Source: Deltaproteobacteria bacterium
Lineage (GTDB): Bacteria > Myxococcota > XYA12-FULL-58-9
NCBI GenBank assembly: GCA_016218825.1
Contig: JACRCV010000097.1
Span: forward strand, 1 to 50,150
Reading direction: 5' to 3'
DNA length: 50,150 nt
Position numbers and translations under genes: made by a program. The notes below the pieces were generated by a model that was not told the origin of the DNA, did not search any database, and saw only the letters and a program-made list of their open reading frames with translations. Shown here piece by piece: positions 2,372 through 43,846 of the stretch; position 1 is the stretch's first letter, and every line of letters begins with the position of its first letter.

Positions 2372-3385
2372 TCACGCCCGACGACGTCTGCCTGACTTGG
2401 AGAGCGACTTACGCATCAGGACTTGTCGCGCCGGCGCACCGACCTTCCGGAAGTGAGCTTCGATGGCGCGGCGCCACTTCTCGTTGCGGAATGGTCGGTA
2501 GCCGAGTTTGGTGTAGAGGTTGCGGGCGGCGGTGTTGTTGGCTGCGACGTTGAGCATGAGCTCTCGGTGCCCCGCCTTGGCCGAGGCAGTTTCCACAGCG
2601 GTCGTGACCCGGGCGCCCAAGCCGCTTCCTCGGAGCCACGGGTGGACCCACACGGCTCCGAGCCACCATCCGGGCAGCCCCAAAGATCGCCACATCGTGG
2701 AGCCAAGCGCGGAAGCGACCGGGCGCCGCAGAACCGTGGCACGAACGGCGATCTGCCTTGGGCAAGAGCTAGGCTGGCTTGCCTCAATGATGCAAAGTCC
2801 TGACAAGCCGGTGTGTCGCCTGAGTCCCCTGACGAAAGCGATACCGTTCGTCGAAGCCAGCGTGCGTGCGAGAATGGGTCTCAACCACCGTCGCACGGCT
2901 GCGGTTTGCCGATCGCAGGCCGACGCGAGCTGGGCGAAGCCGGTCCGGGCAATTAGCCCTGCAAACCTGACCCGCGCATCCCCGGCGCGCACGCGCCAGG
3001 CGCTCTCTTCCATCCACCTGCCGCCCTCTGCCACCGCGACAACGCGGCCGACAATCGTGCGCCGAGATACACGCTTCGGCCTTGCGTTCTCGTTGTCGCC
3101 GCACTGCCAGACACCTCCGATCGGGTCCACCCACAGGACACGGTGGGCCACGCTGCCGAAGATCATGATCTCCCCAGCGCGAGGGCGTGTATCCCTAGGA
3201 TCGTAGACGACCAGGCCACCCGATTGGATCGTCGGCGTCATCGACGCGCCCACGCCGACGGCAACCTCGTAGCACGGCTCCCACCCGCCTTTGCCCCGAT
3301 GGACACGGCGACGCGACCTATTCGCGACGCGGCGGGTACGAGCCTTCTCAGGCAGGCCATGCAGCCGAGATGCCTGGGTGGTCAT
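2372..3385 (-). CDS. S26/S24-type serine peptidase fused to GNAT N-acetyltransferase
   Basis: A 337-residue fusion. Residues ~40-122 form a signal-peptidase-like (S26/LexA-fold) domain: the GASMTPT motif carries the likely nucleophile Ser48, AGEIMIFG is box C-like, and VAHRVLWVD provides His81 at the general-base position, as in S26B-type enzymes rather than the Lys of bacterial LepB. A CGDNEN motif follows at 95-100. Residues ~235-300 are a GNAT domain with a WVHPWLRGSGLG acetyl-CoA loop and an LYTKLGYRPF C-terminal signature. No membrane segment is evident, so a cytoplasmic peptide-processing role is more likely than leader removal at the membrane. The start is supported by a strong GGAGGAAGG (3394-3402), 8 nt upstream. 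The gene diverges from the HPr-kinase-like/radical SAM pair. Cleavage and acetylation of the peptide at 5391-5573 is inferred from context. Confidence 0.7.
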   Translation of the reverse strand: MTTQASRLHGLPEKARTRRVANRSRRRVHRGKGGWEPCYEVAVGVGASMTPTIQSGGLVVYDPRDTRPRAGEIMIFGSVAHRVLWVDPIGGVWQCGDNENARPKRVSRRTIVGRVVAVAEGGRWMEESAWRVRAGDARVRFAGLIARTGFAQLASACDRQTAAVRRWLRPILARTLASTNGIAFVRGLRRHTGLSGLCIIEASQPSSCPRQIAVRATVLRRPVASALGSTMWRSLGLPGWWLGAVWVHPWLRGSGLGARVTTAVETASAKAGHRELMLNVAANNTAARNLYTKLGYRPFRNEKWRRAIEAHFRKVGAPARQVLMRKSLSKSGRRRRA

Positions 3386-3478: not shown

Positions 3479-4327
3479 ATGTCCGGCCAGCGCCGCGTGA
3501 ACATCAACGTCGCCACGATAGGGGTAGGGCTGGAGCTCGATCTCGATCGAGCCACGACGCAATCCATCGTTGAACGCTACGCGGCCTTCGCGACGACGCG
3601 GCCCCACGCAATTCTCAAGGTCACGAGATTTCCCGCACCGGGGCGTGATGAGATCGGAGACAGACCCTCGGCGCGAAGAACCAACGGAGCCCTGACGATC
3701 GAGCTCGAGGGAGCGTACACGGTTGCCATTGATGCCAGTCGACGCCGGGGCTTTCTTGAGTTCGCGGATCGCACCACGAACCTCGTTACGCACCCAGTAC
3801 CACCGGGTCTGCAAGCAGCCTTGCGAGCGCTGTACTCAGTCCTAATCTGCGAGCGTGGAGGCCTGTTGATCCACGGATGTGGAATCGATCTCGGTTCCCG
3901 CGCCGCCATCTTCGTCGGGCCTAGCGGCGCCGGGAAGTCAACGTTGAGCGCGATGTTCGATAGCGGTCGTGTGCTCAGCGACGAGCTGGTTGCGCTGTCG
4001 TTCGAAGGTCGCAGCGTCGTCGCACACGGAACGCCATTCTCCTACACGGACGCAAGCCATCCCCGACATCTGAGTCTGCCGCTGGCTTATGGCGGTATCC
4101 TCTCAAAAGGGCGGAGGTCATCGATCGCCACGGTCACCGCCACCGCCGCGTTTTCGGCCGTCACCAAGTGCCTCGCCCTACCGTACGGTTGTCTTGATCT
4201 CGAAGACGCAGCATTCCAAAGGGCTGGTTGCTTGGTGGGTGGCGTACCCTGGACGAGCCTCCGCTTCTCCACCGACAGAGCTACCACGAAACGAGCAGTC
4301 AAAGCTGGGGTGAAGCTGTTTCCATGA
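3479..4327 (+). CDS. HPr-kinase/phosphorylase-like P-loop protein of RiPP type
   Basis: A 282-residue protein. A GGLLIHGCGI strand at about 127-136 precedes a Walker A loop (VGPSGAGKST, ~146-155), and LSDE at ~167-170 matches the metal-binding motif of HPr-kinase-like enzymes. A GTPFSY motif and an LSLPLAYGGIL stretch follow, as in the HprK-related proteins of lasso-peptide and other PqqD-associated clusters. True HprK phosphorylates HPr Ser46; some relatives in lasso-peptide clusters phosphorylate a C-terminal Ser of the precursor. No HPr or PTS gene is nearby, so a peptide substrate is more likely here. The ATG at 3479 is preferred because earlier in-frame ATGs would overlap the divergent gene. 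The stop overlaps the next start as ATGA (4324-4327), implying translational coupling. Confidence 0.7.
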   Translation: MSGQRRVNINVATIGVGLELDLDRATTQSIVERYAAFATTRPHAILKVTRFPAPGRDEIGDRPSARRTNGALTIELEGAYTVAIDASRRRGFLEFADRTTNLVTHPVPPGLQAALRALYSVLICERGGLLIHGCGIDLGSRAAIFVGPSGAGKSTLSAMFDSGRVLSDELVALSFEGRSVVAHGTPFSYTDASHPRHLSLPLAYGGILSKGRRSSIATVTATAAFSAVTKCLALPYGCLDLEDAAFQRAGCLVGGVPWTSLRFSTDRATTKRAVKAGVKLFP

Positions 4328-5379
4328 GCGTCATGCAGAACCTTGTTGAATTGGCGGCAACTCAGGGTGTGCCTGCCCACGCAACAATCGAGCTCACTGC
4401 GAAGTGCCACCTGGCGTGTGCACACTGTTACGTCAGCCACGACCGTCAGACCAAGCTCAGTCTCGCATGCATCGTGTCGCTTCTTGCAGATCTCAAAGCT
4501 GCTGGCGGGCTCTTCGTCACATTCACCGGCGGGGAAATCGCTCTGCGGCCGGACCTGTACGAAATCGTCGCCGAGGCTCGACGAGGTAGGTTCGCCGTTC
4601 GCCTGTTCACCACCGGGACCCTGTGGGGCACCTCAGAATGGCAACGAGTCGCTGACCTTGGCGTTGAGAGCGTGCAAGTCAGCGTCTACGCAGACGGTCC
4701 GAAGATTCACGATCAGGTGACGGGACGCCGCGGCTCCTTCTCCAAGACGCTGGCCACGATCCACGGTCTTGTGGATCGTGGGGTGACGGTGGTCATTGGA
4801 TGTCCCATTCTCTCCACAAACGCTCGCCATATTCACAAGGTCGCGGCGCTGGCGGACCGCCTTGGAGTCGGCCTCAGGATAGACCCACTGATCACCGGTT
4901 CCGACTGCGGAGGGCCGGCGCCGAATGCTGCAGCAGCCTCTCCTGAGCTCCTGGCAGTGGTATACGGCCATCCGAGATTCCGACGCGCGGGCCCCGAAAC
5001 GGAGCTGCCAACAGAATCGCGAGGGGCGGCGGCGCGACCTTGTTCTGTAGGCGATGCCAGCGTGTTCGTGCGCAGCAGTGGTGACGTGATTCCATGTAGC
5101 CAGTGGCCGACCGTCGCAGGGAATGTTCTGCTCCAGCCACTCACAGAGATCTTCCACCGAAGTCCGGTATTCCGAGCATGCAGGGCCCTGACGAAGGATA
5201 CCCTTTGCTCCGGCGCGGGATGTGTCCACGCGCAGACTTGCAGGCCCTGTGCCGGCATGAACCTCCAAGAGAGAGGATCACTTGCGCTCCCGTCACTGAC
5301 GGTGTGCCGTGCAACCTTCGCGCGTAGAGCTAGCCATTCGCGGCGCCCACGACCTGCACAGATAAGCCCGCGCACTTGA
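4324..5379 (+). CDS. Radical SAM/SPASM peptide-modifying enzyme
   Basis: A 351-residue protein. The AdoMet cluster motif is C28-x3-C32-x2-C35 (AKCHLACAHCY), followed by TGGE at 68-71 in the SAM-binding region. The C-terminal part carries a SPASM-type cysteine set: C240-x12-G-x4-C258, then C295, C300, C306 and C309, and a final C328, plus an additional C286. This matches the CX9-15GX4C...C...C signature of enzymes that bind two auxiliary 4Fe-4S clusters and modify ribosomal peptides (thioether, C-C or similar crosslinks). It overlaps the HPr-kinase-like gene by 4 bp, so the two are coexpressed. The candidate substrate peptide lies head-to-head just beyond the stop. Codon choice is less GC-biased (AGG, ATA and others occur) than in genes right of 7.1 kb, which fits horizontal acquisition. 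The product chemistry cannot be predicted. Confidence 0.85.
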   Translation: MSVMQNLVELAATQGVPAHATIELTAKCHLACAHCYVSHDRQTKLSLACIVSLLADLKAAGGLFVTFTGGEIALRPDLYEIVAEARRGRFAVRLFTTGTLWGTSEWQRVADLGVESVQVSVYADGPKIHDQVTGRRGSFSKTLATIHGLVDRGVTVVIGCPILSTNARHIHKVAALADRLGVGLRIDPLITGSDCGGPAPNAAAASPELLAVVYGHPRFRRAGPETELPTESRGAAARPCSVGDASVFVRSSGDVIPCSQWPTVAGNVLLQPLTEIFHRSPVFRACRALTKDTLCSGAGCVHAQTCRPCAGMNLQERGSLALPSLTVCRATFARRASHSRRPRPAQISPRT

Positions 5380-5390
5380 CGCGCGTCAGC

Positions 5391-5573
5391 TCACGTCTGG
5401 CCGAACCCGACGTCCGTACAGTTCGTGTTGGAGGACGCCTTGGCACACGCGAAGAGCACCTGGCGCTCGAAGATCTCTTCCTCTTGCACTCTCGGCCCGG
5501 TGTAGGTCCTCCGCGATTTCCGCTTCGCTTCGCCGTTCCCATTCCCTGCGTTCCTCAAGGCTGTCTTCCGCAT
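5391..5573 (-). CDS. Candidate RiPP precursor peptide (60 aa)
   Basis: The ORF encodes a basic N-terminal stretch, then TYTGPRVQEEEIFERQ and the tail VLFACAKASSNTNC followed by TDVGFGQT. The Y-x-x-P pattern followed by an acidic helix and a small Ala/Cys/Lys transition resembles leader regions recognised by PqqD-type RREs, as in lasso and several radical SAM RiPPs. Two cysteines spaced C-x8-C could be crosslink sites. I count G or C at the third position in 50 of 60 codons, whereas the overlapping frame from 5580 is much less biased; this supports real coding. An AGGTG ribosome-binding sequence lies 4 nt before the ATG. It starts 7 bp after the giant lipoprotein stop on the same strand, and converges with the radical SAM gene with an 11-bp gap. 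No database match could be checked. Confidence 0.6.
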   Translation of the reverse strand: MRKTALRNAGNGNGEAKRKSRRTYTGPRVQEEEIFERQVLFACAKASSNTNCTDVGFGQT

Positions 5574-5580
5574 ATTTCAC

Positions 5581-8500
5581 CTACCTGAATAGATAGATCG
5601 AACCTGCATCACGCGTGGAAAGTACCATCTGCGGTTCGGTCGCAGCAGTCCCAGGCACGAAGCCGTTGGCCGCCGCCAGTCCAGTGCCAAAACTGGGCGC
5701 CCCGCGGAGAATCGCTCGCTTCACGAAACCGCCTGCCCCAACATCAAGCGAGTACAAGTAGACACCAAAGTTTCCGACACCTGCGTTGTAGCCAGGACCC
5801 ACCAATATGTCCACGCCGGACAACCCGTCAAAGTCGCCAACGGCCGCGAGGGAGTTGCCGTACTGAGTCGGTGGCAACCCGGTCCAGTCTGTCGGGTCAA
5901 GCGCGGCCGGCGACGGCACGATGCCAGGGCTACCGCCCAAGGCAGTCCCTTTGTATACAAAGACCTGCCCATTGCCAGCCGCTTGTACAAGGAGCCAGTC
6001 GGCCAAGTCCGCCGCACCGAGTGGGTTGGTGATGCCGAGAAGAGTCTGACCGAAGTTGACGCCACCTGCAGGATAGCGCAATACCGTCATGAGCTGCGAA
6101 GGCGCTGAATCCGGTGCTGCAACATCGCCCACTAGACCCGCGCCACCACGGTAGACGTAAACCTCGCCGCAATTGTTGCAGGACCCCGACGAGTCGTGGC
6201 TTGCCGTATTGTCGCTCACCACAACGTCACCCGCCCCGTCGCCATTGACGTCGGCAACGGTAAGGAAGAACGGAAAGAGGCCGAACAACGACGCCTTGCG
6301 CTGGAGTGAGAGCTCGGGCCGATTGGCGAAGCCGGAGCTGGGCGTTGATACCAAATCGAGGTTTATCAAGCTGGTAGCCGAACCCGAGGACGGGAAACGA
6401 GAACGGGATCCTCCAAAAAAGCCGTACACGCGCGGCTTGTTCCCTGTTGGCTGTGTCGTCACTACGATGTCGGCGCCGTGGCGTCCGTCCACGTCGCCAA
6501 GGCTCAAACGATAGCAGAACCTCGCATTGGCGGGTCCGAGCAGCGCGACATCCGGCGTCACTGAGGGCAACTGAAAATCCGTTGTGTTCAAGTCTCGGCG
6601 GATGCCTTCGCCTGCCTTGCCGTAGTACAGATAGAGCGCACCAGCCGCGGCCCCAGAACTAGTTGCACCGGTTGTCGGCATGGTGGGGGCGCACACGGCG
6701 AGGTCCGAGAGTCCATCGCCATCGAAGTCGCCGCCCGCGATGTTGACGCCGAAAAGACCAGGCCCGTTGGCCGGCGACATAATGACAACGTCTGGTGAGG
6801 TTAGGCTCCCACTGCTCAAGAAGAGCGACACCGAAAACACCTCGGTCCGTCGGGTCACGCCGAAATCGCCACGGCCGTCACCATCAAGGTCACCGAGGGC
6901 GGTCACGGTGTTGCCAAACCATGTTGATGAAGCGACAGAGGCCAGGGCCGCGGCAGCGCTGTCGTCGACCGGAGAAACCGGATCAAACCCCACCACCTGA
7001 GGATAATTGACGAGCGGCATCGCCCGCTCCCGAACCGAGCTGGCCACCACCGCCTTGTTCCCAGCATCATCGACGCCGAGAACCGCGAAGCAATACGAGC
7101 GATGCGGATAGAGGTCGGTGATGCCGGCCCGCTCCTGCCCGCCCGGCGCCGCGGTCGCCGTCACGTTGACGACCTGCTCCACCTTGGCCGCGTCCGTCGC
7201 CACGAGCTCGGCGCACTGGGTGTACGTGACGCTCTGGGCGGTGGGCGGCTGCGGGTATGGAATGCCGCGCGCCGCGACCAGGATCTGATAGCTCACGACC
7301 GCCCCGCCGCTCGCCCCGTCCTCCGCCGGCGCCTGCCACACGAGCGTCGCCTTGCCCTTGCGCCGATCGCACTTGCCGGTCACCGCGCAGTGCGCCGCAC
7401 AGCTCGGGTCTTCGTAGGTCGAGGGATCGCTCGCCGGCGTCGAGACGGTGTACGGCGTCGTCGACTCGCCGATGCAACAAGTCGCCTGCGCCGCCCCAGG
7501 CACCAACACGTCGGTCTTGGCGTAAAGGGTCTCGGGATCCCGCGGCGTCGTGATCGTCGCCTGGTTCCCGGCCCGATCCATGAACGCCACCGTCAGCTGA
7601 TGCGCCTCCGCACCCGCGAGCGTCGGCACGTTCAGCTCTCTGAACGTCGCCGAACCCGCCTGACAGGTCGGACAACCGGTGGCCGCCTCGTCGTTGCCCG
7701 TGAGCCCGCCCCGGTTCGACACCAGCCGCACCCGCTCGCCCGGCTCCACGCCCAACAACCGGACCGTGAGGGGCTTGCCGGTGGCGAGGATCGTGAAACC
7801 ATTCGACGGCGTCAGGTCCTGATCCCCGGCCGCGTTCCAAACCGCCGGCGACGCCGCCCCCACCATGTTCGCCTGGTTGTCGCCGTCCCACTGCCCGGCG
7901 TCCACGCAGGTCGTCAGATCCGTCGGACAGATGCCGCCGCCGGTGAGCGGCACCCCCAGCTTGCACAACGAGCAACGGTCGAACTGGAACGTCGGCGGAT
8001 CGATGTCGGCGATGATGTTGTTGTACTGCCGCAAGCCGCAATTCGCGGCGGCCGCGCAGTTCACCGTGACGATGACGCTGTTGATCTTGTCCGCCGCTCG
8101 GTCCCCCGGATGTGGGCTGGTCCGCAGGACCACCCCGCTGAAGTCGACCTCGAAGACCGTCGACGAGATCGTCGCGAGCGTCACATCCGCCGTCGTGCTG
8201 GTGTTCACCTGGAAGTCGATGGTGGTGGGCGTCAGCGCCGCAGCCGAGGTCCTCGTGACCCGCACCCGCAGATTGGTGGCGAAGGCGCCGGGCGCGCCGA
8301 GATTCTCCGCCGGCCCCCAGTAAATGTCGTTCGCCAGGAAGTCGCCGGTCGCCCCCGGCGGCACCAACCCGTTCAGTCGCTCCACGACCACCAACACGCC
8401 GTCCAAACTGAGCTTGAGGTAGATCGGGTCTGAATGACTGACGTTGTCGTTGCTGTCGATCGCCGCCACCCGCACCGCCCGCACCACTCCAGGCGCCAAC

Positions 8501-11500
8501 CGGTAGCCCGCCGGGTAGGACCCGAGCGTCAGGTCGGTCGCCACCCCGATACGACTGGTGTCCACTTCTTCGTAGGTCGACGTCACCCCGACGATCAGCG
8601 ACTCCAACCACACCGTGGCTGCAGATGCCTCGATCGTCGCGTCGCTGTTCACGAGGCCCGATAGCGTGTAGCGCAGGTCGGTGCCACCGTTGTTCCGATA
8701 CGGATCGGTAGCATCCAAATCCAACAGCGCGAGGCCGTCGTTGTTGTCCGGGTTCTTGTAGTCCGCAACACAGCCATCCACCGCGTCGACCTCACAGGTC
8801 GACTGGTGCTGGAGCGGACTCACCGACCAGACCTGGAGCGTCAGACCCGGCCCGTAGAAGTCCGCCGGATACAGCGTCCGCGCCGTCGTCGTCTTGTTGC
8901 CCGCCGCGTCGACGAGCTCCGCCTCGAGGTAGTTCTTCCCCATGTGCAGCAGGAACGCCGGGAACGAGATACTGGTTTGGCCGGCGGTGAGCGTCACCAC
9001 CGCGCTCTCGAGCGCCGTGCCCCCGGCGGCAGCGTCGAACGACCGCAAGGTCAGCTGCCCGCCCGCGAGATCCTCGTTGTCCGCCACCGCCACCAGCACG
9101 CCGACGCCGAGCTTCTGGTTCCCGTCCGGCGTCCCGTCCGCCGAGGTGTAGGGTGCCGCGCCATGCGCCGGCCCCGGCAGGCTCACCGTCGGCGGGATCA
9201 GGTCGACGACGACGTCCTGCGACGCCACCAGGTCGGTCGTGACGTCGTTGTAGTTGCCGGCGTCGTCGCTCACCCGCACGAACACATGCTGCCGCCCACC
9301 GTACAGATCCACGTCGACGCTCGCGATCTGCGTCGTCGCGTCGCCGCCGAGCACCACGCCCGCGACGCTCACCACCGTGCTCGCCGCCGGCACGTCGCTC
9401 AGGACGTCGACGCTGCGACCCGGGGTCGAGCCGGTCACGGTGATGTCGAGCCGGGTCCGGAGCCGGTCCGCCGTTCGGGTGCGCTCGGTCTCGCCGAGCA
9501 GGAAATAGCCGCTCTGGTCGTTCGCGGTCTTGTTGTCGACGTAGTCGACCGCGCTGACCGACGGCGGCACCGAGTCGACGCTGAAGGCGAAGAACGACGA
9601 GAACGAGTCGGGGTTCTTGTCCGGCGCCACCACCTCGGCGTGGATGGTCTGCAGCCCGTCGGCGAGCGTCACCGCCGACATGAACGCCGAGCTCGCCGCC
9701 AACGACCCGACGAGCACGCCGGTGGCGATGACATAGCCCGCGGTCGGATCCGGCGTCGCGAAGTCCGTGCGGATGTTCAGCGGGTTACCGTCCGGATGCC
9801 AGCGGCAACAATCGAGCTCGCTGCCGGCGGCGCAGGTGCCCACCGCGCCCGCCGTGGGCTCGGTCGAGCACAGCTTCAGCGTCGTCCCCGGCGCGAACGC
9901 CACCACGTTGAAGGCGAAGGTCGCCTGAATGCCGGTCTGATTCGGATCGTTGTCGCGCCCGTTGTTGACGGAGCCCGGACCGCCGGGGATCGCCCAGTTG
10001 ACCCGCGCCTCCAGCCCCTTGACCTCGAAGCTGTAGGAGCTCGCCGGCGCCACGTTCCCGGCCAGGTCGGACACTGACGCGGTGGCCCGGTACAACCCGT
10101 CCGCGAACGCCAGGGTCGGGAAGCTCACCGTCGCCGTCGCGGGCAGCGTGAGCGGGAAGTCGCTCGCGGTCTTGCCTTGCGGTGGCGGGTCGATGGTCAA
10201 CGAGACGTTGCCGACGGCGTCACCGGTCACGTCGTACTTGAACGCGTAGTCGACATACGTCGAATCGACATTGGCGTCGTCCGAACGCGACAGCAACGTC
10301 TGCGACGGCGGCGGCGACTGTTGCGTCAACACCGGCGGCACCATGTCGACGGTCAACGTCGCCGCCGTGCCGGTCGCCTGGTTGCCGCCGAGATCGGTCA
10401 CCCGCGCCTGGAACGAGATCGAGCCCGACGTGGCGACGCCGAAGTCGACGTTGCCGAAGGTGACGAGCACCGGATCGCCGCCGGTCGCGAGCACCGTGCT
10501 GTAGGTGGTCGCGCTCCCGGCGCCCGGTGGCGTGACAGACAGCGACACCGTCCACCCGGCGGGATCGGCGCCACCGGTGTGCACGACCACCCCCACCGAG
10601 TGTTGCAGCCCGGCGAGCCCGGAGTCGTCGGCGACGAGGGTGTTGACGTAGCCCGGCGGGCTGAACACCAGACGCCCGGGCGTGCCGGGATCCTCGCTGC
10701 GCAGGTCCGGCGCCGGCGGCGCGGTGTCGTCGATGGTGACCCGGATCGTCTGGCTCACCCCCGAGCCGCACTCGACGCGAACGTCGTGCGTCGCTTCCGA
10801 GGCGTCCGCCGCGGTGTCGATCACGAGCGGCGCCGCGGTCGGCTCGGTCCAGGTGGCGGTGCCGTTGGCGCTGCCGTCGATGAACAAGGAGCACGCCGCG
10901 TTGGCGTAGGTGCCCGACGCCTCGGCGCCGACGTACACCGCGTGCACCTCGAAGGCGGTGTTGCCCGTCGCGCTGCCGGCGGGCGGCGCCGAGATCACGA
11001 GCTCCGGCCCCGCTGCCGGCGTCGTGATCGTCGCCATCGCGCCGCTCGCGGTGTTGCCGAGCGCGTCGGTGTAAACCGGCGTCAGCTCGATCCCCGTCCC
11101 CGACGGCAAGCTCGCGTCGGTGAAGGTCACGCTCGTCGCCCCGGCGCCGATCGGCGCGCTCAGGACATTGTAGACCGTGCCGCCTTTGCCGACCGTCACC
11201 GAGATCACGCCGCTCTGAGTGTCGGCGGCCGCGAGCTCCACAGTGAGCGTCTGGTTGAACCCCGGAAGGCCGCCGTTGCTGTCGGTCGGGCTCGCCGCCA
11301 CCGCCGGGTTGAAGGTGGGCACCGGCGCCGTGTCTTTGACCGTCACCAGCACGTTCTCGCTCAGGTTGTTGATCGCGTCGTCGACCGAGACCGCGATGCA
11401 GTTCTGCCCCGAGGCGAGCGGCACGCCGGTGAACAACACGCCGCCCGCGGTCTCGAAAACCGTCGCGATCGGCCCGGCCGCGGGAACCCCGGCGCACTGC

Positions 11501-13584
11501 CGCACCCCCGCCGTCGTCGTCGAGCCCGGAAAGACCTCCACGGTCACGGTGCGCGGGTAGCCGGCGAGCCCGAGCCCGGTCGCGACGTCTAGATCCACCT
11601 GCGTCTGCCGGATGGTCAAGCCGTCGGCGAGCGCGCGCCGACGGGTAAAGTCGGCAACACAACCGGCGGCCCCGGTCGCGTTCCACATGCAACCGGCGGC
11701 CGAGGCGCACGCCGTCTGGTCGTTCACCGCACAGCCCGAGTTGTCGGCGACGTAAGGCGTCACCACCACCGCCGCGGGCGACGACGACACCGTCACCGTG
11801 ATCGGGGCGCTGTCGACGTCGTTGTTGCAGACGTCCTTCACGCGCGCCACCAGGGTGTGGGCGCCGTCCGAGAGCGACACCGGCTGCAAGATGGTGCCGC
11901 CGACGCCGACCGGCGGCACGAAGTTGTAGGTCGCGTCGCCGGTCAACAGCCGCCCGATCGAGCCCGCCGGCACGTTGGCCAGCGTCAGCCCGACGTCGTA
12001 TTGCAGGCCGGCGATGTTCCGCTCCATGTCGTCGGCCACGCCGAGGCGCGCCTGGTCGTCCGGCGCCGAGATCGTCACCGTCGGCGGCGTCGTCGACACC
12101 GTGACCTGGGCGCGACGCGCCGCGCTCCGATTCCCAGCGACGTCGAGCGCGGTGTACTCCACGGTCACGTCACCGTCCCCCAGGTCCACCTGACGCACGA
12201 TGAAGCTGCCGGCGGTCACCGTCCCCACGCCGCGGCAGAATGCGTCGCGACACAGCTGCGGCGCGGCGCAGTCGGTATCGGCAACGCACGCGGTCGCCGT
12301 CCCGCTCGTCGGGTAGACCATCACCCAGACCTCGGCACCGTCCTCGGCGCCGGCGACGTTGCCGTTGGCGTCGGTCTGGATGCCGGGGATCGCGGTGTAG
12401 AGATCTTGCGAACCGACGTAGCACCCCCCGGGGCCCGGGGTGAGCGGCACCACGGTCGGCGGGTTCGAGTCGACCCAATAGCGCGTCGGCAGCGTCACAC
12501 CCGACTGCCCGGGGTTCTCTTCTACCACGCCGACCAGCTCGATGTCGTAGCGGCTCGGGCCGGCGCTCTCGTCGAGCTGCACGCTGGTCATCCGGAAGCG
12601 CCACCCCAACGGATCCGCGGTCGCGACCGGCGGCGTCGACAAGATCAGAGTCGTGTACGCCGGCTGCGGATCATTCGCGCTGCGCTTGCGGTAGTGCATC
12701 GTGACCGTCGACGCGCTGCCGCAATTGGTGACCAGGTCGAGGGTCGCCTGCATCCCGCCGACCGGGTTCAGATCGGCGTCGTCTTTGGCGAGCAGCTTCG
12801 CGCCGTCGATCGGCTCCAACACCGCGAGACAGCGCGCGGTGTCAACCGTCACCGTCGCCGTGGTCGGCGCCCCCGATGCGGCCGCAACCTGGGGCACCGC
12901 GGCGAGGGCGTTCGGCCCCTCGGCGAGCGGCACCCGCAAGAACGTGGCGCGCAGCCCCGGCAGGCCCGACAGGGCACCCAGCACCGCGGTACGCGGCAGA
13001 CCGCCGTTGACGCGCAGCAAGACCACCTCGCCCTCGGTGCCGCCGAAGCAATCGAGCTCGACGTCGACCTCGAACGGGTCGAAGGGATCCTGGGCGTTGA
13101 CGTACTCCGGGTTCTCCGCGGTGAGGACGCTGCCGTCCGCCGGATCGTTGAAGGCACACGCCGCGAGCTTGACGGTGACGGTGACCTGGGCGCAACGGTC
13201 CCCCTCGCACTTCATCGACTCTTCCCAGGCCGGGATCGCGACCCGCAGGATCACCGCCCCCGACGGCAAGGTGTAGCCGGGGAACACGACCCGATCGCCG
13301 CTGACGGTCCCCTCCACCCGGTGCGCGGCGCCGTCGACGCTGTTCCACAGGTAGATGCTGTCGCCGTCGTTCATGTTGGTGACGGTCGCCTGGACGTTGC
13401 TCTGGATCCCCGCCGCCGAGCTGACATCGTCGGTGGGTCCGAGGACGCTGCCGTCGAGCGGAAACTCAAAAGCCAGCCGCGGCTCGTTGTACGTCACCCG
13501 CGCCCGGCCGCAGCTCCCCGAGCAGCCGAACGGCAACAGCAGCACCGCCACCAGCCCCAAACGCAGAGTCCGCATCGATGTCAC
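5581..13584 (-). CDS. Giant secreted lipoprotein: multiple Ig-like domains, Fn3-like domain, C-terminal FG-GAP propeller
   Basis: About 2,667 residues. The N-terminus is a lipoprotein signal (LVAVLLLPFGC, lipobox Cys21; +2 Ser suggests outer-membrane sorting). Residues ~60-2080 are a long series of bacterial Ig-like units of roughly 100-130 aa with repeated DxAGN/DxxGN turns (LVDAAGN, VSDLAGN, VKDVCNN) and scattered cysteine pairs. An Fn3-like unit lies at ~2085-2175 (VWQAP...PHRSYCFAVLGVDDAGN). The last ~450 residues carry five clear FG-GAP/calcium-loop motifs (GDLDGDGRGDF ~2228, GDFDGDGLSDL ~2288, GDVDGRHGADI ~2365, ADVNGDGAGDV ~2446, GDFDGLSGVDI ~2585). A GTG at 13584 with GGAGG 5 nt upstream overlaps the pqqD-like stop (GTGA); the ATG at 13575 is the alternative. 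An adhesive or structural surface role is likely. Base composition changes near 7.05 kb, close to the start of the propeller part. Confidence 0.85.
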   Translation of the reverse strand: MTSMRTLRLGLVAVLLLPFGCSGSCGRARVTYNEPRLAFEFPLDGSVLGPTDDVSSAAGIQSNVQATVTNMNDGDSIYLWNSVDGAAHRVEGTVSGDRVVFPGYTLPSGAVILRVAIPAWEESMKCEGDRCAQVTVTVKLAACAFNDPADGSVLTAENPEYVNAQDPFDPFEVDVELDCFGGTEGEVVLLRVNGGLPRTAVLGALSGLPGLRATFLRVPLAEGPNALAAVPQVAAASGAPTTATVTVDTARCLAVLEPIDGAKLLAKDDADLNPVGGMQATLDLVTNCGSASTVTMHYRKRSANDPQPAYTTLILSTPPVATADPLGWRFRMTSVQLDESAGPSRYDIELVGVVEENPGQSGVTLPTRYWVDSNPPTVVPLTPGPGGCYVGSQDLYTAIPGIQTDANGNVAGAEDGAEVWVMVYPTSGTATACVADTDCAAPQLCRDAFCRGVGTVTAGSFIVRQVDLGDGDVTVEYTALDVAGNRSAARRAQVTVSTTPPTVTISAPDDQARLGVADDMERNIAGLQYDVGLTLANVPAGSIGRLLTGDATYNFVPPVGVGGTILQPVSLSDGAHTLVARVKDVCNNDVDSAPITVTVSSSPAAVVVTPYVADNSGCAVNDQTACASAAGCMWNATGAAGCVADFTRRRALADGLTIRQTQVDLDVATGLGLAGYPRTVTVEVFPGSTTTAGVRQCAGVPAAGPIATVFETAGGVLFTGVPLASGQNCIAVSVDDAINNLSENVLVTVKDTAPVPTFNPAVAASPTDSNGGLPGFNQTLTVELAAADTQSGVISVTVGKGGTVYNVLSAPIGAGATSVTFTDASLPSGTGIELTPVYTDALGNTASGAMATITTPAAGPELVISAPPAGSATGNTAFEVHAVYVGAEASGTYANAACSLFIDGSANGTATWTEPTAAPLVIDTAADASEATHDVRVECGSGVSQTIRVTIDDTAPPAPDLRSEDPGTPGRLVFSPPGYVNTLVADDSGLAGLQHSVGVVVHTGGADPAGWTVSLSVTPPGAGSATTYSTVLATGGDPVLVTFGNVDFGVATSGSISFQARVTDLGGNQATGTAATLTVDMVPPVLTQQSPPPSQTLLSRSDDANVDSTYVDYAFKYDVTGDAVGNVSLTIDPPPQGKTASDFPLTLPATATVSFPTLAFADGLYRATASVSDLAGNVAPASSYSFEVKGLEARVNWAIPGGPGSVNNGRDNDPNQTGIQATFAFNVVAFAPGTTLKLCSTEPTAGAVGTCAAGSELDCCRWHPDGNPLNIRTDFATPDPTAGYVIATGVLVGSLAASSAFMSAVTLADGLQTIHAEVVAPDKNPDSFSSFFAFSVDSVPPSVSAVDYVDNKTANDQSGYFLLGETERTRTADRLRTRLDITVTGSTPGRSVDVLSDVPAASTVVSVAGVVLGGDATTQIASVDVDLYGGRQHVFVRVSDDAGNYNDVTTDLVASQDVVVDLIPPTVSLPGPAHGAAPYTSADGTPDGNQKLGVGVLVAVADNEDLAGGQLTLRSFDAAAGGTALESAVVTLTAGQTSISFPAFLLHMGKNYLEAELVDAAGNKTTTARTLYPADFYGPGLTLQVWSVSPLQHQSTCEVDAVDGCVADYKNPDNNDGLALLDLDATDPYRNNGGTDLRYTLSGLVNSDATIEASAATVWLESLIVGVTSTYEEVDTSRIGVATDLTLGSYPAGYRLAPGVVRAVRVAAIDSNDNVSHSDPIYLKLSLDGVLVVVERLNGLVPPGATGDFLANDIYWGPAENLGAPGAFATNLRVRVTRTSAAALTPTTIDFQVNTSTTADVTLATISSTVFEVDFSGVVLRTSPHPGDRAADKINSVIVTVNCAAAANCGLRQYNNIIADIDPPTFQFDRCSLCKLGVPLTGGGICPTDLTTCVDAGQWDGDNQANMVGAASPAVWNAAGDQDLTPSNGFTILATGKPLTVRLLGVEPGERVRLVSNRGGLTGNDEAATGCPTCQAGSATFRELNVPTLAGAEAHQLTVAFMDRAGNQATITTPRDPETLYAKTDVLVPGAAQATCCIGESTTPYTVSTPASDPSTYEDPSCAAHCAVTGKCDRRKGKATLVWQAPAEDGASGGAVVSYQILVAARGIPYPQPPTAQSVTYTQCAELVATDAAKVEQVVNVTATAAPGGQERAGITDLYPHRSYCFAVLGVDDAGNKAVVASSVRERAMPLVNYPQVVGFDPVSPVDDSAAAALASVASSTWFGNTVTALGDLDGDGRGDFGVTRRTEVFSVSLFLSSGSLTSPDVVIMSPANGPGLFGVNIAGGDFDGDGLSDLAVCAPTMPTTGATSSGAAAGALYLYYGKAGEGIRRDLNTTDFQLPSVTPDVALLGPANARFCYRLSLGDVDGRHGADIVVTTQPTGNKPRVYGFFGGSRSRFPSSGSATSLINLDLVSTPSSGFANRPELSLQRKASLFGLFPFFLTVADVNGDGAGDVVVSDNTASHDSSGSCNNCGEVYVYRGGAGLVGDVAAPDSAPSQLMTVLRYPAGGVNFGQTLLGITNPLGAADLADWLLVQAAGNGQVFVYKGTALGGSPGIVPSPAALDPTDWTGLPPTQYGNSLAAVGDFDGLSGVDILVGPGYNAGVGNFGVYLYSLDVGAGGFVKRAILRGAPSFGTGLAAANGFVPGTAATEPQMVLSTRDAGSIYLFR

Positions 13585-13940
13585 AGCGACCTCCCCGAGC
13601 CCGTCTTGGCCCTGACCGGCACCAGCACGTCTCTTTTCGCGAGCACACCCACGAACCCCTGGGCGTCGGCGAGCGCTCGCGTCGCGGTGGTGTCGAACTC
13701 TCGCACGATCTTGGCCACCACCTGCGGGATGGTCGCGGCGTGCTCGAAGCTCTCCCAGATGAAGGTCCCGACCTCGTTCAAGCGCAGCATCCGGCTGTTC
13801 AACAGGATGAACGCGGTGCCGTCGAGCGTCCGGCACGCCACCCGCGGGTTCCACTGCCAGCGACCGGCCGCTTTGGCGCTGCGGATATTCTTCGGCCTCG
13901 CGGCCGGCTTCTTGGCCTTCGGCTTGGACTTGGTCGTCAT
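13581..13940 (-). CDS. PqqD-family peptide-chaperone (RRE) protein
   Basis: A 119-residue protein. After a Lys/Pro/Ala-rich basic N-terminus (~1-25) comes a PqqD-like winged-helix: WNPRVACRTLDGTAFILLN, then RMLRLNEVGTFIWESF, an ATIPQVVAKIVREFD helix, and DAQGFVGVLAKRDVLVP. The LNEVGTFIW motif and the alternation of beta strands and helices are diagnostic of the family, which binds leader peptides and presents them to radical SAM enzymes. It is locked between spoVR (ATGA overlap) and the giant lipoprotein (GTGA overlap), so it is cotranslated with both. The nearest radical SAM enzyme (4324-5379) has no fused RRE, and a candidate precursor follows the lipoprotein in the same orientation. This protein may serve that system in trans; that link is inference. 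The long basic N-terminus is unusual. Confidence 0.75.
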   Translation of the reverse strand: MTTKSKPKAKKPAARPKNIRSAKAAGRWQWNPRVACRTLDGTAFILLNSRMLRLNEVGTFIWESFEHAATIPQVVAKIVREFDTTATRALADAQGFVGVLAKRDVLVPVRAKTGSGRSL

Positions 13941-15430
13941 GGCTCGGTCTCGATCTCCGTCTGCTTGTAATCGCGGCCGTCGAAGCGCTCCAGCACCACC
14001 TTGTCGTCGGCCCGGGTCACGATGCCCACCGGCCGGGTCCACATCGCGTGCAGGCTCTTCAAGGTGTCCCTCATCCAGTCCTGGCGGAGCGGCGTGCCCT
14101 CGTAGACGTGCTTCAACAACAGCTCGCCGCGGTTCTCGAAGTTGCCGTCCACCACCTGGATCACCGGCTGACCGAAGTTCGTCAGTGAGAACAACAGCTT
14201 GTTCTTCACCGCCTTGAACTCGCGGTCGGTGATCTCCCAGTTGTTGGTCTTCTCGTTGAAGCCGTAGGTGAACAGTTTGTGGTCGCGCACGAAGTCGATG
14301 GTCAGGAACTCGTCGATGAAGGTGACGTCATTATAGTGACGGCGCACCTCGAAGATCTTCTTGCGCCCCTGGCCCTCGCGCGTGTCCCAGCTCTTGCGCC
14401 TCGCGAGGCTGTCGCACTCCTGCCACTCTTTTCCGAAGCGACCCTTGTTCCAGCGGTCCTCGATGTCACGAAACAACTCGAGGCCGAGCTTGTAGGGGTT
14501 GATGGTCCCGGGCTGCACCCCCATCGTCCCGGCGTGGCGATCGGCGTAGTCGATGAGCTCCGAGGGCTCGAGCGCCTTCTGGGTCATGATCGTCGTGTGC
14601 CAGAACGACGCCCAGCCCTCGTTCATGACCTTGGTCTGGCCCTGCGGCGCGAAGTAGTAGGCTTCGTCGCGCAGCATCGCCATCACGTCGCGCTCCCAGT
14701 TCTCGAGCGGCGCGTTCTCGAGCACGAACAGCATCACGTCGCGCTCCGGCCGCTCCGGGAAGCGCCGCGCCCGCTCGCGCTCCTCTTTGATGCGCTTCTT
14801 CTGCTCCTCGATAAACTCGTCGGGGTTGATGTAGCGTTGCATGTACTCGCGGTCGGTCTTCAGGCGCGGCACGTCGGTGACCTCGACGTCGCGCTCCGGC
14901 TTCTCGGCCTTCTCCGAGCGCCGCTTGATGAACGGCGCCTGGCGGTCGACGAGGTTCTCGATCGACAGCACCCGGTCGATGAACCCCTCGACCTTCTCGA
15001 CCCCGTAGCGATCGATGTAGCGGCGGATCCGGGTGCCGTGATTCGCCATCGTGTCCATCATCTTGCGGCTGGTGTGCGCGAACGAAAAGTTGTTCTTGAA
15101 GAAGTCGACGTGACCGTAGACGTGGGCCATCACCATCTTCTGATCGACGTCGGCGTTCGACACCATCAAGTAGGCGTACGAAGGGTCGTTGTTGATCACC
15201 AGCTCGTAGATCTTCGACAACCCGTACGAGTAGCTCTTCGCCAGGTGCTCGTACTCCATGCCGAACTTCCAGTGGGGGTAGCGGGTCGGAAAACCGCCGT
15301 AGGCGGCGATCATGTTCATCTCGTCGTACGACACCGACTCGAAGATGGTGTCGTAGAAATCGAGCCCAAAGTCGCGTGCATAGCGTTCGACCTGGGCGCG
15401 GATCTTCTCGAGATGTGCGGGCAGCGGCAT
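13937..15430 (-). CDS. spoVR: SpoVR family protein
   Basis: A 497-residue protein matching the SpoVR/YcgB family over its whole length. Conserved stretches include YDEMNMIAAYGGFPTRYPHW, an AYLMVSNADVDQKMVMAHVYGH motif with Asp/His residues, NFFKNN-like NNFSFAHTS, NEGWASFWH, and a C-terminal beta-rich part. In Bacillus it affects spore-cortex formation; in enterobacteria it is a sigma-S-linked gene usually beside yeaH and prkA (yeaG). Neither partner is here; instead a PqqD-like gene and a giant lipoprotein follow with 4-bp overlaps. The biochemical activity of the family is unsettled. The ATG at 15430 precedes the first conserved residues, as is usual. A 92-bp gap separates it from the divergent aconitase-family gene. 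Confidence 0.9.
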   Translation of the reverse strand: MPLPAHLEKIRAQVERYARDFGLDFYDTIFESVSYDEMNMIAAYGGFPTRYPHWKFGMEYEHLAKSYSYGLSKIYELVINNDPSYAYLMVSNADVDQKMVMAHVYGHVDFFKNNFSFAHTSRKMMDTMANHGTRIRRYIDRYGVEKVEGFIDRVLSIENLVDRQAPFIKRRSEKAEKPERDVEVTDVPRLKTDREYMQRYINPDEFIEEQKKRIKEERERARRFPERPERDVMLFVLENAPLENWERDVMAMLRDEAYYFAPQGQTKVMNEGWASFWHTTIMTQKALEPSELIDYADRHAGTMGVQPGTINPYKLGLELFRDIEDRWNKGRFGKEWQECDSLARRKSWDTREGQGRKKIFEVRRHYNDVTFIDEFLTIDFVRDHKLFTYGFNEKTNNWEITDREFKAVKNKLLFSLTNFGQPVIQVVDGNFENRGELLLKHVYEGTPLRQDWMRDTLKSLHAMWTRPVGIVTRADDKVVLERFDGRDYKQTEIETEP

Positions 15431-20645: not shown

Positions 20646-20674
20646 ATCGTAAACAAGAGCCGTACGGATGTCAA
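20646..20674 (-). promoter_or_regulatory. Near-consensus sigma-70 promoter for the SCP2/Ala-rich operon
   Basis: On the minus strand: -35 TTGACA (20669-20674, perfect), 17-bp spacer, -10 TACGAT (20646-20651). The -35 overlaps the stop codon of the FadL-type gene. Predicted leader is about 60 nt. Confidence 0.65.
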
Positions 20675-22122
20675 TCGCGTTCGCGGCAACAATTTGGTCC
20701 CCCGACAGCCAACGGCGCAGCCGCCGGTGCCGCCCCGAGTGCCACGCCGACGGCCAGCATCGCCAGGACCTGGTGGTTGCTGTAGTCGCCGTTCGCGATC
20801 GGCCACTGCTCTGACGGCGGCAGGGTGAGCGGGTTGACGATCTTGATGTTGGTGTTGGTCACCGTCACCGGCAGCCAGTACAAATAGCCGGCGGCGACGT
20901 CGACGAAGATCCCGAGCGGCAGATCGAGGCGCGCCCCGAGGGTCGCACCCACCTTGTCGAGATCGAGCGAGAACGCGCTCAGGTACTCCTCGGGCACCGC
21001 GCCCTTCTCGTAAAAGCCGCCGAGACGCAGCGCCAGGAGATCGGGGAGCAGCTGGTACTGGGCGCCGCCGCGAACGCTGAAGGTGTCCTGCCAATGAGAC
21101 GTGATCTTGATCTCCTGCAACGTGGTGTCGCCGCGGCTGACGTCCGACATCACGATGTCCTTGGGCTGGAACAAGATCGTGTCGTTGCGATGCCAGCCTT
21201 CGTGGACGAACGCCAAGGACAGCGCCAGCCGCTCCTTGAGGGCGCGGTAGGTCGCCGCCACGGTGATCACCGCCGCCAGCTTCATCCGCGCGTCGATCTG
21301 GTCGCCGCGAACGCTCGCGAGGCGCGCCAGGCCGGAGGCCAGAGCGATCTGGTCGGCCTTGCCGGACGCATGGACGTCGAAGGGTAGCTGATAGGACGCC
21401 GCGATCGTCAGCGCCGGGGATAGCGCGCCCGAGATCCCGACGATGCCGCAGGGGATCCACGGATCGACGGCGCGCACGTGCACGTAGGCGTCGTACGACG
21501 GGTCCTCCGGCTGGGCGAGCGGCGGGAACACGCCGCTGATGTTCAAGCCGGCGTCCACGGTCTCGCGGATGAGCATCCCCGCGACCCCGAGCCGCAGCTG
21601 ATACCAGGGCAGCTCGTACGCCGCACCCAAGGTCATGCTCATCTGCAGCGCGTGGTACTCGACCTCGGAATAGCGCTGTGCGCCCTCTTTCGGCCAGACG
21701 TGGTCGACCCTTGGTGGGCCGTAGACGCCGCCGCCCACCGTGAGCCCGCCGAGGCCGAGCCTCTCGAGGTTGTAGGACGCGAACAGCGCCGGGCTCGGCA
21801 GCGTCGGGGTCCAGCCGTTCGCGACCGAGGTGTAGCGCGTCAGCGTGCCGCTCCCAATCGGGTCGTCACTGGCGCGCGCGAAGGTGCGGGCATCGAAGAT
21901 CCAATCGGCGTCCACGACGACGGCCAACCCCTTGACGCCGGCGAGCCCCGCGGGGTTGTGCATGATGGCCGTCGGGTCCCGCGGATCGGCCAGGCTCGCC
22001 GCCCCCTGCCCGAAGCTCGCCGTCCCCTTGTCGATGTTCCACCAGCCGGCGGCATGGGCCGCGATCGGCATACAAAGGAGGACGACGAGCGGCCACCACC
22101 CCTGTTGACAGCCGCGCCGCAA
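20671..22122 (-). CDS. FadL/OMPP1-type outer-membrane transporter for hydrophobic compounds
   Basis: About 483 residues. A signal peptide (WWPLVVLLCMPIAAHA) leads into the family's N-terminal signature: a small-residue hatch (GTASFGQGAASLADPRDPTA followed by IMHNPAGLAG). The rest is alternating beta strands with aromatic girdle residues, ending in short strands, consistent with a 14-stranded barrel. Family members pass long-chain fatty acids or aromatic hydrocarbons across the outer membrane through a lateral opening. No ATG fits ahead of the signal peptide; TTG at 22122 gives an MRRGCQQG n-region and is my choice. It diverges from the EpmA-like gene and sits directly upstream of two SCP2 genes on the same strand, which suggests that imported lipid is handed to cytoplasmic carriers. 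The C-terminus ends NCCRERD rather than in a strong aromatic. Confidence 0.75.
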   Translation of the reverse strand: MRRGCQQGWWPLVVLLCMPIAAHAAGWWNIDKGTASFGQGAASLADPRDPTAIMHNPAGLAGVKGLAVVVDADWIFDARTFARASDDPIGSGTLTRYTSVANGWTPTLPSPALFASYNLERLGLGGLTVGGGVYGPPRVDHVWPKEGAQRYSEVEYHALQMSMTLGAAYELPWYQLRLGVAGMLIRETVDAGLNISGVFPPLAQPEDPSYDAYVHVRAVDPWIPCGIVGISGALSPALTIAASYQLPFDVHASGKADQIALASGLARLASVRGDQIDARMKLAAVITVAATYRALKERLALSLAFVHEGWHRNDTILFQPKDIVMSDVSRGDTTLQEIKITSHWQDTFSVRGGAQYQLLPDLLALRLGGFYEKGAVPEEYLSAFSLDLDKVGATLGARLDLPLGIFVDVAAGYLYWLPVTVTNTNIKIVNPLTLPPSEQWPIANGDYSNHQVLAMLAVGVALGAAPAAAPLAVGGPNCCRERD

Positions 22123-22191
22123 GATCCGATAGGCCAGGGGCCCGTCGGCCCACAAGGGCGCCCGGGTGCGGTGGGACGAGGAGCGCGGCGA

Positions 22192-23181
22192 ATGAACTTG
22201 GAGGGGATGCACCGACGCGCCGCGATCATCAAGGCGGTGCGCGCCTTCTTCGACGGCCGCGGGTTTCTGGAGGTCGACACCCCGGTCGCGGTCACCGCGC
22301 CGGCGCCCGAGCCGCAGATCGAAGCACCGGCGACCGCCCTCCGCGTCGGGCACGAGGTGCAGCGCCGCTTTCTCCAGACCTCGCCCGAATTGATGATGAA
22401 GCGCCTGCTCGCCGCCGGTGTGACGCGCGCCTATCAGATCGCCCCGGTGTTCAGGGACCGCGACTTCACCAGCTGCCATCGCCCCGAGTTCCGCCTCCTC
22501 GAGTGGTACCGCCGGGACGCCGGCTGGCAAGAGCTCCTCACCGACTGCGAAGGGCTCCTCGCCGCCGCCGCCACCGCCGCCGGTCTGGGTGTCCGCATCC
22601 CCTACCAGGGCAAGAGCATCGACCTGCAGCCACCGTTTCGCCGCCTCAGCGTGGAGGCGGCTTTCGTGCAGCACGCCGGCTTCTCCATCCTCGAGGCCCA
22701 GAGCGTCGAAGGTCTCCAGGCCCGGCTGACCGCCACCGGCGTTCGGTTTGCCGCGGACGACACCTGGGACGATCTCTTCCATCGCGTCTTCCTCACCCGT
22801 GTCGAGCCCGAGATCGTCGCCGACCCCAAGCCCGTCTTCCTGACTCACTACCCGGCGCCGCTCGCCGCCCTCGCCCGCCTCGACCCGGACGACCCTCGAG
22901 CCTCGGAGCGCTTCGAGCTCTACGCCGGTGGCCTCGAGCTCGCCAACGGCTTCGGCGAGCTCACCGATCCCGGCCTGCAGCGCCGTCGCTTCGCGGACGA
23001 CCGCGCTCGCCGCCGGCGACTCCAGCTCGCCGACTATCCCTTCGACGAGCGCTTCCTCGCTGCGCTCGCCACCCTCCCGCCTTCCGCGGGCATCGCGCTC
23101 GGCGTCGACCGCCTGTTGATGCTGCTGTTCGACGCCGCCGACATCGACAGGGTGGCGTTTATCCCCTGGAGCGAGTCGTGA
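22192..23181 (+). CDS. epmA: EpmA-like EF-P (R)-beta-lysine ligase / truncated lysyl-tRNA synthetase
   Basis: A 329-residue class II aminoacyl-tRNA-synthetase catalytic domain without the N-terminal OB-fold of LysRS, which is the EpmA/GenX/PoxA architecture. Motif 1 is GFLEVDTPV, motif 2 is APVFRDRDFTSCHRPEFRLLEWY, and motif 3 is GIALGVDRLLMLLF. EpmA attaches (R)-beta-lysine to elongation factor P, aiding translation of polyproline stretches. The partner genes epmB (lysine 2,3-aminomutase) and efp are not in the window, so function by homology only. A GAGGAG 8 nt before the ATG supports the start. trmB follows 64 bp later on the same strand. Confidence 0.82.
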   Translation: MNLEGMHRRAAIIKAVRAFFDGRGFLEVDTPVAVTAPAPEPQIEAPATALRVGHEVQRRFLQTSPELMMKRLLAAGVTRAYQIAPVFRDRDFTSCHRPEFRLLEWYRRDAGWQELLTDCEGLLAAAATAAGLGVRIPYQGKSIDLQPPFRRLSVEAAFVQHAGFSILEAQSVEGLQARLTATGVRFAADDTWDDLFHRVFLTRVEPEIVADPKPVFLTHYPAPLAALARLDPDDPRASERFELYAGGLELANGFGELTDPGLQRRRFADDRARRRRLQLADYPFDERFLAALATLPPSAGIALGVDRLLMLLFDAADIDRVAFIPWSES

Positions 23182-23246
23182 GGGCAAGCGTCGATTCTCT
23201 TTGGGACGTGATCGCGACCCGTGACGCGGCGGCAAGGGGGCGCTGA
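23178..23246 (+). CDS. Possible 22-residue linker ORF between epmA and trmB
   Basis: A GTG overlapping the epmA stop (GTGA) opens a 22-codon frame (MRASVDSLWDVIATRDAAAR...) whose TGA overlaps the trmB ATG (TGATG). Overlaps at both ends are what a coupling cistron would show, but the frame is short and may be chance. Confidence 0.2.
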   Translation: MRASVDSLWDVIATRDAAARGR

Positions 23247-41423: not shown

Positions 41424-41461
41424 CAGCTCATCGCCCTCTTTCGCACCAAGCGCTGCAGCGC

Positions 41462-43792: not shown

Positions 43793-43846
43793 CGCTGCCG
43801 ACCCTACCCCGCTCGCGGTTGCTGCCAATCCTCGGCGCCGACCGCC

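Follow-up and report, generated by a model that had tools for sequence, protein, structure and literature searches.

The window, by which we mean the entire 50,150-nt stretch of DNA analysed here, contains on its minus strand a 60-codon open reading frame at 5391..5573. An earlier note, which gave no strand, had singled this frame out as a candidate precursor peptide gene, and its extent and ATG start are confirmed. The encoded peptide, MRKTALRNAGNGNGEAKRKSRRTYTGPRVQEEEIFERQVLFACAKASSNTNCTDVGFGQT (MRKTALRN...GFGQT), finds no match in NCBIfam or Pfam. It contains the two features that had drawn attention to it, Y24-x-x-P27 (codons at 5493..5504, minus strand) and C43-x8-C52, as well as the stretch EEEIFER, where the note had proposed an acidic helix. 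The YxxP element is the predicted RRE-binding motif, a role taken from PMC13381572. A leader cut before Cys43 would give the predicted core CAKASSNTNCTDVGFGQT (5394..5447, minus strand); alternatively, the cut may fall after R37. An AGGTG resembling a ribosome-binding site (5578..5582, minus strand) lies 4 nt upstream of the ATG, as had been described, and overlaps the stop codon of a giant gene. The peptide gene follows that gene closely, its ATG being 7 nt past the giant stop, and it converges with a radical SAM gene that ends at 5379; both arrangements had been read correctly from the letters.

The codon use of the frame is strongly biased. G or C occupies 50 of the 60 third positions, a recount that agrees with the count made by eye, and 30/60 and 31/60 of the first and second positions. 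The resulting GC3 of 0.83 resembles that of the neighbours on the same strand (giant gene, 0.87; PqqD-like gene, 0.93; SpoVR gene, 0.93) and differs from that of the genes on the opposite strand (radical SAM, 0.65; HprK-like, 0.68). Overlapping frames have GC3 values of 0.51-0.61. The one from 5580, which had been called less biased, is a minus-strand frame with a GC3 of 0.53 and its excess in position 1 (0.80). We consider it very probable that the 60-residue frame is a genuine gene whose product is chemically modified and trimmed by the neighbouring enzymes.

The giant gene (5581..13575, minus strand; a GTG at 13584 is an alternative start) encodes an FG-GAP/Ig-domain protein of about 2664 aa, with Big_13 and FG-GAP repeats detected by Pfam and a lipobox-like N-terminus read by eye. 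Upstream of it, abutting or overlapping, is the gene for a discrete PqqD-like RRE protein of 119 aa (13581..13940, minus strand), which gives weak NCBIfam matches to lasso PqqD chaperones. Among solved structures it is closest to two lasso-peptide RREs, TbiB1 and TfuB1, each determined in complex with a leader peptide. TbiB1 ranks first by sequence (profile match, 1.5e-16) and, with its leader bound, also by fold against the predicted model (pLDDT 84). Asp92 is invariant in 17/17 aligned RREs; by analogy, we infer that it corresponds to the conserved RRE aspartate that, according to PMC13381572, bonds the leader tyrosine. A SpoVR-family gene (13937..15430, minus strand) overlaps the start of the PqqD-like gene by 4 nt, the same overlap as that between the HprK-like and radical SAM genes. 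It also lies directly upstream of the PqqD-like gene in loci L010, L024 and L160, and, although a neighbour conserved in the nearest relatives, probably stands outside the system.

The radical SAM/SPASM maturase (351 aa; 4324..5379, plus strand) carries PF04055 and a SPASM domain. Its best solved relative is SkfB (8e-40), followed by PqqE (1.6e-26); a search of viral contigs with this protein returned three pattern matches and no relative. In genome G001, of the same genus, the corresponding gene (L024:9009-10393) seems split over two frames, through either pseudogenization or an assembly error. The start of the radical SAM gene overlaps the stop of a gene for an HprK-like kinase with an HprK/PEPCK-type fold (282 aa; 3479..4327, plus strand), in which the Ser, Gly and Lys of the P-loop are invariant in 17 aligned proteins. 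By sequence, HprK structures appear at ~1e-5 among ABC P-loop matches. The predicted model (pLDDT 91.6) adopts a PEPCK/HprK-type fold, and Foldseek places PEPCK first, not HprK, the 50 matches listed all being PEPCK. HprK and PEPCK form one superfamily, and the structural matches of the model support the fold rather than a particular substrate. Divergent from the HprK-like gene is a gene (2372..3385, minus strand) for a 337-aa fusion of an S26-type peptidase, of the archaeal/SipW-like Ser-His-Asp type, with a GNAT acetyltransferase. The Ser-Met-Thr-Pro, Ala-His-Arg-Val and Gly-Asp motifs and the GNAT domain are present, and the S26 domain matches curated models weakly (TIGR02228, E 5.5e-4, below the cut-off).

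A single-sequence search with the last 39 residues of the peptide, run against 58 genomes including the window's own, gave weak matches adjoining FG-GAP genes (E 0.0037-0.07), three of which are real (G002, G003 and G005). All three are small ORFs directly behind an FG-GAP gene; radical SAM and HprK-like genes lie near the peptide in G002 and G003, and the G005 contig ends soon after. A second G005 match, the fifth listed, falls within a longer frame and is unrelated. Profile A1, built from four peptides, added G001, G011, G051 and G065 along with some chance matches, and profile A2, built from eight, matched 27/195 genomes at E <= 0.05, some of them by chance. Homologous peptides occupy the corresponding place in 7 other genomes of the phylum, all with a Y-x-x-P leader and a Cys-containing tail. 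Besides Met1, the eight peptides share only Y24, P27 and L40 as invariant residues, and the homologues are only 21-37% identical to the window peptide, which counts against the precursor reading.

Where these homologues stand beside radical SAM and PqqD-like genes, the comparison proposed in the earlier note, Y-x-x-P and a cysteine are kept next to both gene types. The invariance it had expected of the cysteines holds, roughly, for the first; the second cysteine and the C-x8-C spacing vary across the family. In the nearest relatives the frame is undisrupted, and the other frame is not the one conserved: in tblastn with four query frames, the claimed frame matches best at the corresponding place in L010, L011, L012 and L025, and the other three give antisense-shadow or unrelated matches only. 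Used alone in tblastn, the window peptide misses the homologue in L024, L026 and L027, where the profile detects it.

To describe the anatomy of the family we tabulated 30 peptides, 28 with a radical SAM gene in the region plus those of G005 and G065, whose contigs end. L059, the same locus as G051, was counted once. Left out were L056 (its peptide ends in Gly, and 4.5 kb contain no PqqD or HprK), L074 (one of its two peptides is truncated at the contig end, the other ends in Thr), L057, L061 and L108 (no YxxP peptide found), and the peptides with no radical SAM gene nearby or outside the regions examined (G027, G042, G081, G082, G093, G095, G096, G128, G129, G173, G177 and G178). Core lengths and sequences vary, and a core cysteine is retained in nearly all peptides with a radical SAM gene present. 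The leader tyrosine and the first core cysteine are 18-20 residues apart in 26/30 peptides, and the residue preceding that cysteine is Ala, Gly, Ser or Thr in 23/30. The pattern YxxP, 18-20 residues, a small residue and Cys can be used to search for genes overlooked by gene callers. Of the 30 peptides, 21 end in Ser or Thr, against a background in the same loci of 12.5% (673 long ORFs) and 15.3% (12,516 small frames); the corresponding statistics, 2.2e-13 (at 12%) and 2.6e-11 (at 15.3%), ignore relatedness and are not to be read as probabilities. A strict coupling of the C-terminal Ser/Thr to HprK is weakened by counterexamples both ways. No HprK was found in 20 kb around G011, though its peptide ends in Ser, and HprK-bearing loci with a peptide not ending in Ser or Thr occur in G003, G091, G095, G128, G129, G028, L058, L060, L062, L065 and L066.

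The placement of the peptide gene directly behind a giant FG-GAP gene recurs in other genomes and is new here. Among the 21 genomes examined of the 27 matching A2 (all but G059, G081, G093, G096, G104 and G194), the YxxP peptide starts -4 to +34 nt from the giant stop in 16, which carry nine family labels (f1, f2, f4, f10, f13, f14, f23, f24 and f26). Pfam detects FG-GAP in 14 of these 16 giants; the other two, those of L010 and L024, share 43% and 50% identity with the window's giant, and only the C-terminal 465 aa of the L146 giant fall within the region examined. The pairing holds even where no radical SAM gene is nearby: none was found in the regions examined of L140, L142, L143, L145 and L146, nor in L026, where the contig stops shortly behind the peptide. 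ORF lists, without a Pfam scan, reveal no giant FG-GAP gene beside the A2 match in G027, G042, G082, G158 or G173, and G158 has no YxxP at its match. G004 has a close homologue of the giant, yet PqqD and peptide were not found there. Strong BLAST matches to the C-terminal 572 aa of the giant are confined to the order, so this search missed the giants of other families, which were found via the peptide. A carrier, an anchor and a receptor of the mature peptide are all compatible roles for the giant lipoprotein. Searches of the open-access literature found no paper linking FG-GAP proteins and RiPPs.

To place the cassette in a broader context, we scanned one genome per species with the radical SAM alignment and obtained at least 80 loci. 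Among the 80 listed, the 25 closest to the window's enzyme (E <= 1e-80) differ sharply from the other 55. In the regions examined, HprK-like genes occur in 22/25 of them versus 1/55, PqqD-like genes likewise in 22/25 versus 1/55, and S26-like genes in 16/25 versus 0/55. Part of the HMM seeds behind these local profiles came from the same loci. When only proteins of the window's phylum serve as BLAST queries (E < 0.05), HprK is again recovered in the same 22 loci, of which L059 matches itself, and PqqD in 20. As for the three loci of the 25 that lack HprK, L071 and L076 end shortly after the radical SAM gene and the L056 contig measures 4.5 kb. The 25 loci span Patescibacteria, Omnitrophota, Aminicenantes, Planctomycetota, Acidobacteria, Lentisphaerae, Chloroflexota, Bdellovibrionales, Desulfobacterales, Nitrospiraceae, Cloacimonadales, Myxococcota and others, and at least 22 of them have small YxxP ORFs near the radical SAM gene, many ending in Gly-Ser. 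The S26 domain is fused to GNAT in the cassettes of L085 and L100 and to NTP_transf_5 in L079, L064 and L062. Directly behind an HprK-like gene, L069:3889-5973 encodes a 694-aa triple fusion of S26 peptidase, GNAT and NTP_transf_5, which suggests that the three domains act on one substrate.

We conclude, with a probability of roughly 0.82, that the ORF encodes a RiPP precursor that would be bound by the RRE, crosslinked by the radical SAM enzyme, phosphorylated by the kinase, cut by the S26 peptidase, acetylated by the GNAT domain and partnered by the giant lipoprotein. This reading follows from the Y-x-x-P leader and short Cys tail, conserved in frame beside the same genes; at the sequence level the gene, leader motif, adjacency and domain identities are established. 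It supports the earlier proposal of a precursor for a radical SAM/PqqD system and extends it by two partners, the HprK-like kinase and the S26-GNAT protein. Binding of YxxP by RREs is established for the lasso and LPP types (PMC13381572), and by analogy the PqqD-like RRE would bind Y24-x-x-P27 through its invariant aspartate and present the peptide. The SkfB-like radical SAM/SPASM enzyme may then form a thioether-type crosslink from Cys43 and/or Cys52, as its relationship to SkfB suggests. By analogy with LppK and the paeninodin kinases, the HprK-like kinase would phosphorylate a core Ser/Thr, possibly the C-terminal Thr60. The S26 domain would cut the leader near the first core cysteine, at FA|C or, as in LPP, at FER|; its presumed counterpart LppS requires Ser, His and Asp (PMC13381572). 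The GNAT domain, judging from the fusion, could acetylate the N-terminus so exposed. The giant FG-GAP/Ig surface lipoprotein, encoded just upstream and probably on the same transcript, would be the partner of the mature peptide.

The closest known system is that of the linear polyphosphorylated peptides (LPP; LppA/B/K/S; PMC13381572) of Bacillota, to which its authors consider LPP restricted. The window shares with it the YxxP leader and discrete lasso-type RRE, the HprK-like kinase and, weakly against curated models, the S26/SipW-like peptidase with Ser/His/Asp. The NTP transferase of that family may correspond to the NTP_transf_5 domain fused to S26 in L079, L064, L062 and L069. The LPP precursor motif YxxPxVLxHQxIxFETxxS is not found in the window peptide, which has Y24..P27 and FER at 35-37 but no HQ or FET..S. 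Neither the NTP transferase nor the MsbA-like transporter of LPP was found among 7 proteins scanned with Pfam (window 1-15.4 kb) and 10 further window proteins. The term 'radical SAM' is absent from the text of PMC13381572, and the sections of it consulted report no giant FG-GAP partner. We place the window's system outside LPP because the precursor motif and the NTP transferase/transporter set fail in the window and a radical SAM enzyme is added.

The shared core set also raises an alternative: a linear phosphopeptide like LPP, modified chiefly through phosphorylation by the HprK-like kinase, with an accessory part for the radical SAM enzyme. Three loci of the window's phylum, L140, L143 and L145 (13.0-13.5 kb regions of G095, G128 and G129), speak for it: they are LPP-like sets outside Bacillota, with PqqD-like protein, YxxP peptide, HprK-like protein, a weak S26-like match (in L143 and L145, of the local profile to a GNAT protein) and giant FG-GAP lipoprotein, and no radical SAM gene within about 13 kb. 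In the window, however, the radical SAM gene adjoins the HprK-like gene with overlapping start and stop, and the two are linked in loci of several phyla. The core cysteines are kept in nearly all peptides where the radical SAM gene is present, and the FETxxS site of LPP is absent. We regard this alternative as unlikely.

Still less probable is a role of the small protein, unmodified, as chaperone or subunit of the giant lipoprotein, with the radical SAM enzyme and kinase acting elsewhere. Such a role would fit the tight adjacency in 16/21 genomes, but other phyla carry the same peptide type beside radical SAM and PqqD genes with no giant FG-GAP gene seen in the ORF list, and YxxP is the known ligand of this RRE type (PMC13381572). 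A function as scaffold from which a small redox cofactor is made, in the manner of PqqA and PQQ, draws on PqqE being the second-best solved relative of the radical SAM enzyme; it is very improbable, given that the core has no conserved Glu-Tyr or Val-Tyr pair, the motifs of PqqA and mycofactocin, that cores vary in length and sequence, and that scores stay far from the PqqE (75.9 vs 381 bits in NCBIfam), mycofactocin and other equivalog cut-offs. A chance frame, conceivable for a short ORF in a GC-rich genome with no database match, is already contradicted by the conservation of frame, motif and place in other genomes.

The precursor reading also separates the cassette from other characterized systems. 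Like sactipeptides of the SkfB type, it combines a radical SAM/SPASM maturase closest to SkfB with a Cys-containing core; it differs in its discrete lasso-type YxxP RRE, kinase and S26-GNAT protein, and its thioether is a prediction. With lasso peptides of the paeninodin type it shares a YxxP/WxxP leader, a B1-type RRE and an HprK-like kinase (PMC13381572). PMC12710340 lists YxxP as the lasso motif, and a passage of PMC4289311 treats lasso clusters. No lasso macrolactam synthetase (C) or B2 leader peptidase was found among the window proteins scanned, a subset of its ORFs. The HprK/ScmC-like, PqqD-like and radical SAM proteins match the SynChlorMet cassette (ScmA-F) weakly, at 10.8 vs 125, 23.5 vs 100 and 67.9 vs 400 bits for the ScmC/D/E equivalogs, and the window has one radical SAM protein where NCBIfam names two (ScmE and ScmF). 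NCBIfam scores also fall below the equivalog cut-offs for GeoRSP (radical SAM, 99 vs 400; PqqD, 19.9 vs 100 bits) and HprK-related kinase A (TIGR04352, 26.8 vs 200 bits).

Tentatively, the cassette may define a distinct RiPP class: YxxP-guided, thioether-crosslinked by radical SAM chemistry, phosphorylated by an HprK-like kinase at the C-terminus or close to it, and both cleaved and acetylated N-terminally by S26-GNAT. In Myxococcota-like bacteria the peptide might be co-translated with, and displayed or sensed by, the giant lipoprotein, possibly in cell-cell recognition or adhesion. Such a pathway would join YxxP recognition of the lasso/LPP type, with kinase and signal-peptidase-like processing, to radical SAM crosslinking, which the literature consulted keeps apart; in searches of the open-access literature, no paper was found that placed a precursor peptide in one pathway with both radical SAM and HprK. 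From the fusions S26-GNAT and S26-GNAT-NTP_transf_5, further modifications can be predicted and tested, and the coupling of peptide and giant suggests that some RiPPs are parts or ligands of cell-surface machines, not free antibiotics.

Other YxxP peptides came to light in the same genomes. L136 (G027) has two tandem Cys-rich ones with -GS at the C-terminus; no gene for PqqD, HprK or radical SAM was found in 12.8 kb. Another type, RRNYQPPRIVKKRAVSRATLFTGSGP..., occurs in L137 and L138 (G042 and G082) and in G081, and the genomes G042 and G082 each carry several copies; no PqqD or HprK was found in the regions examined of L137 and L138, and in L138 each of two such peptides precedes a lipoprotein-like protein of about 510-520 aa. 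The window itself encodes, all on the minus strand, a second FG-GAP protein of 1290 aa (29247-33116) and, at 20674-23289 and 37827-43828, a FadL/TodX-type outer-membrane protein and two large TPR proteins.
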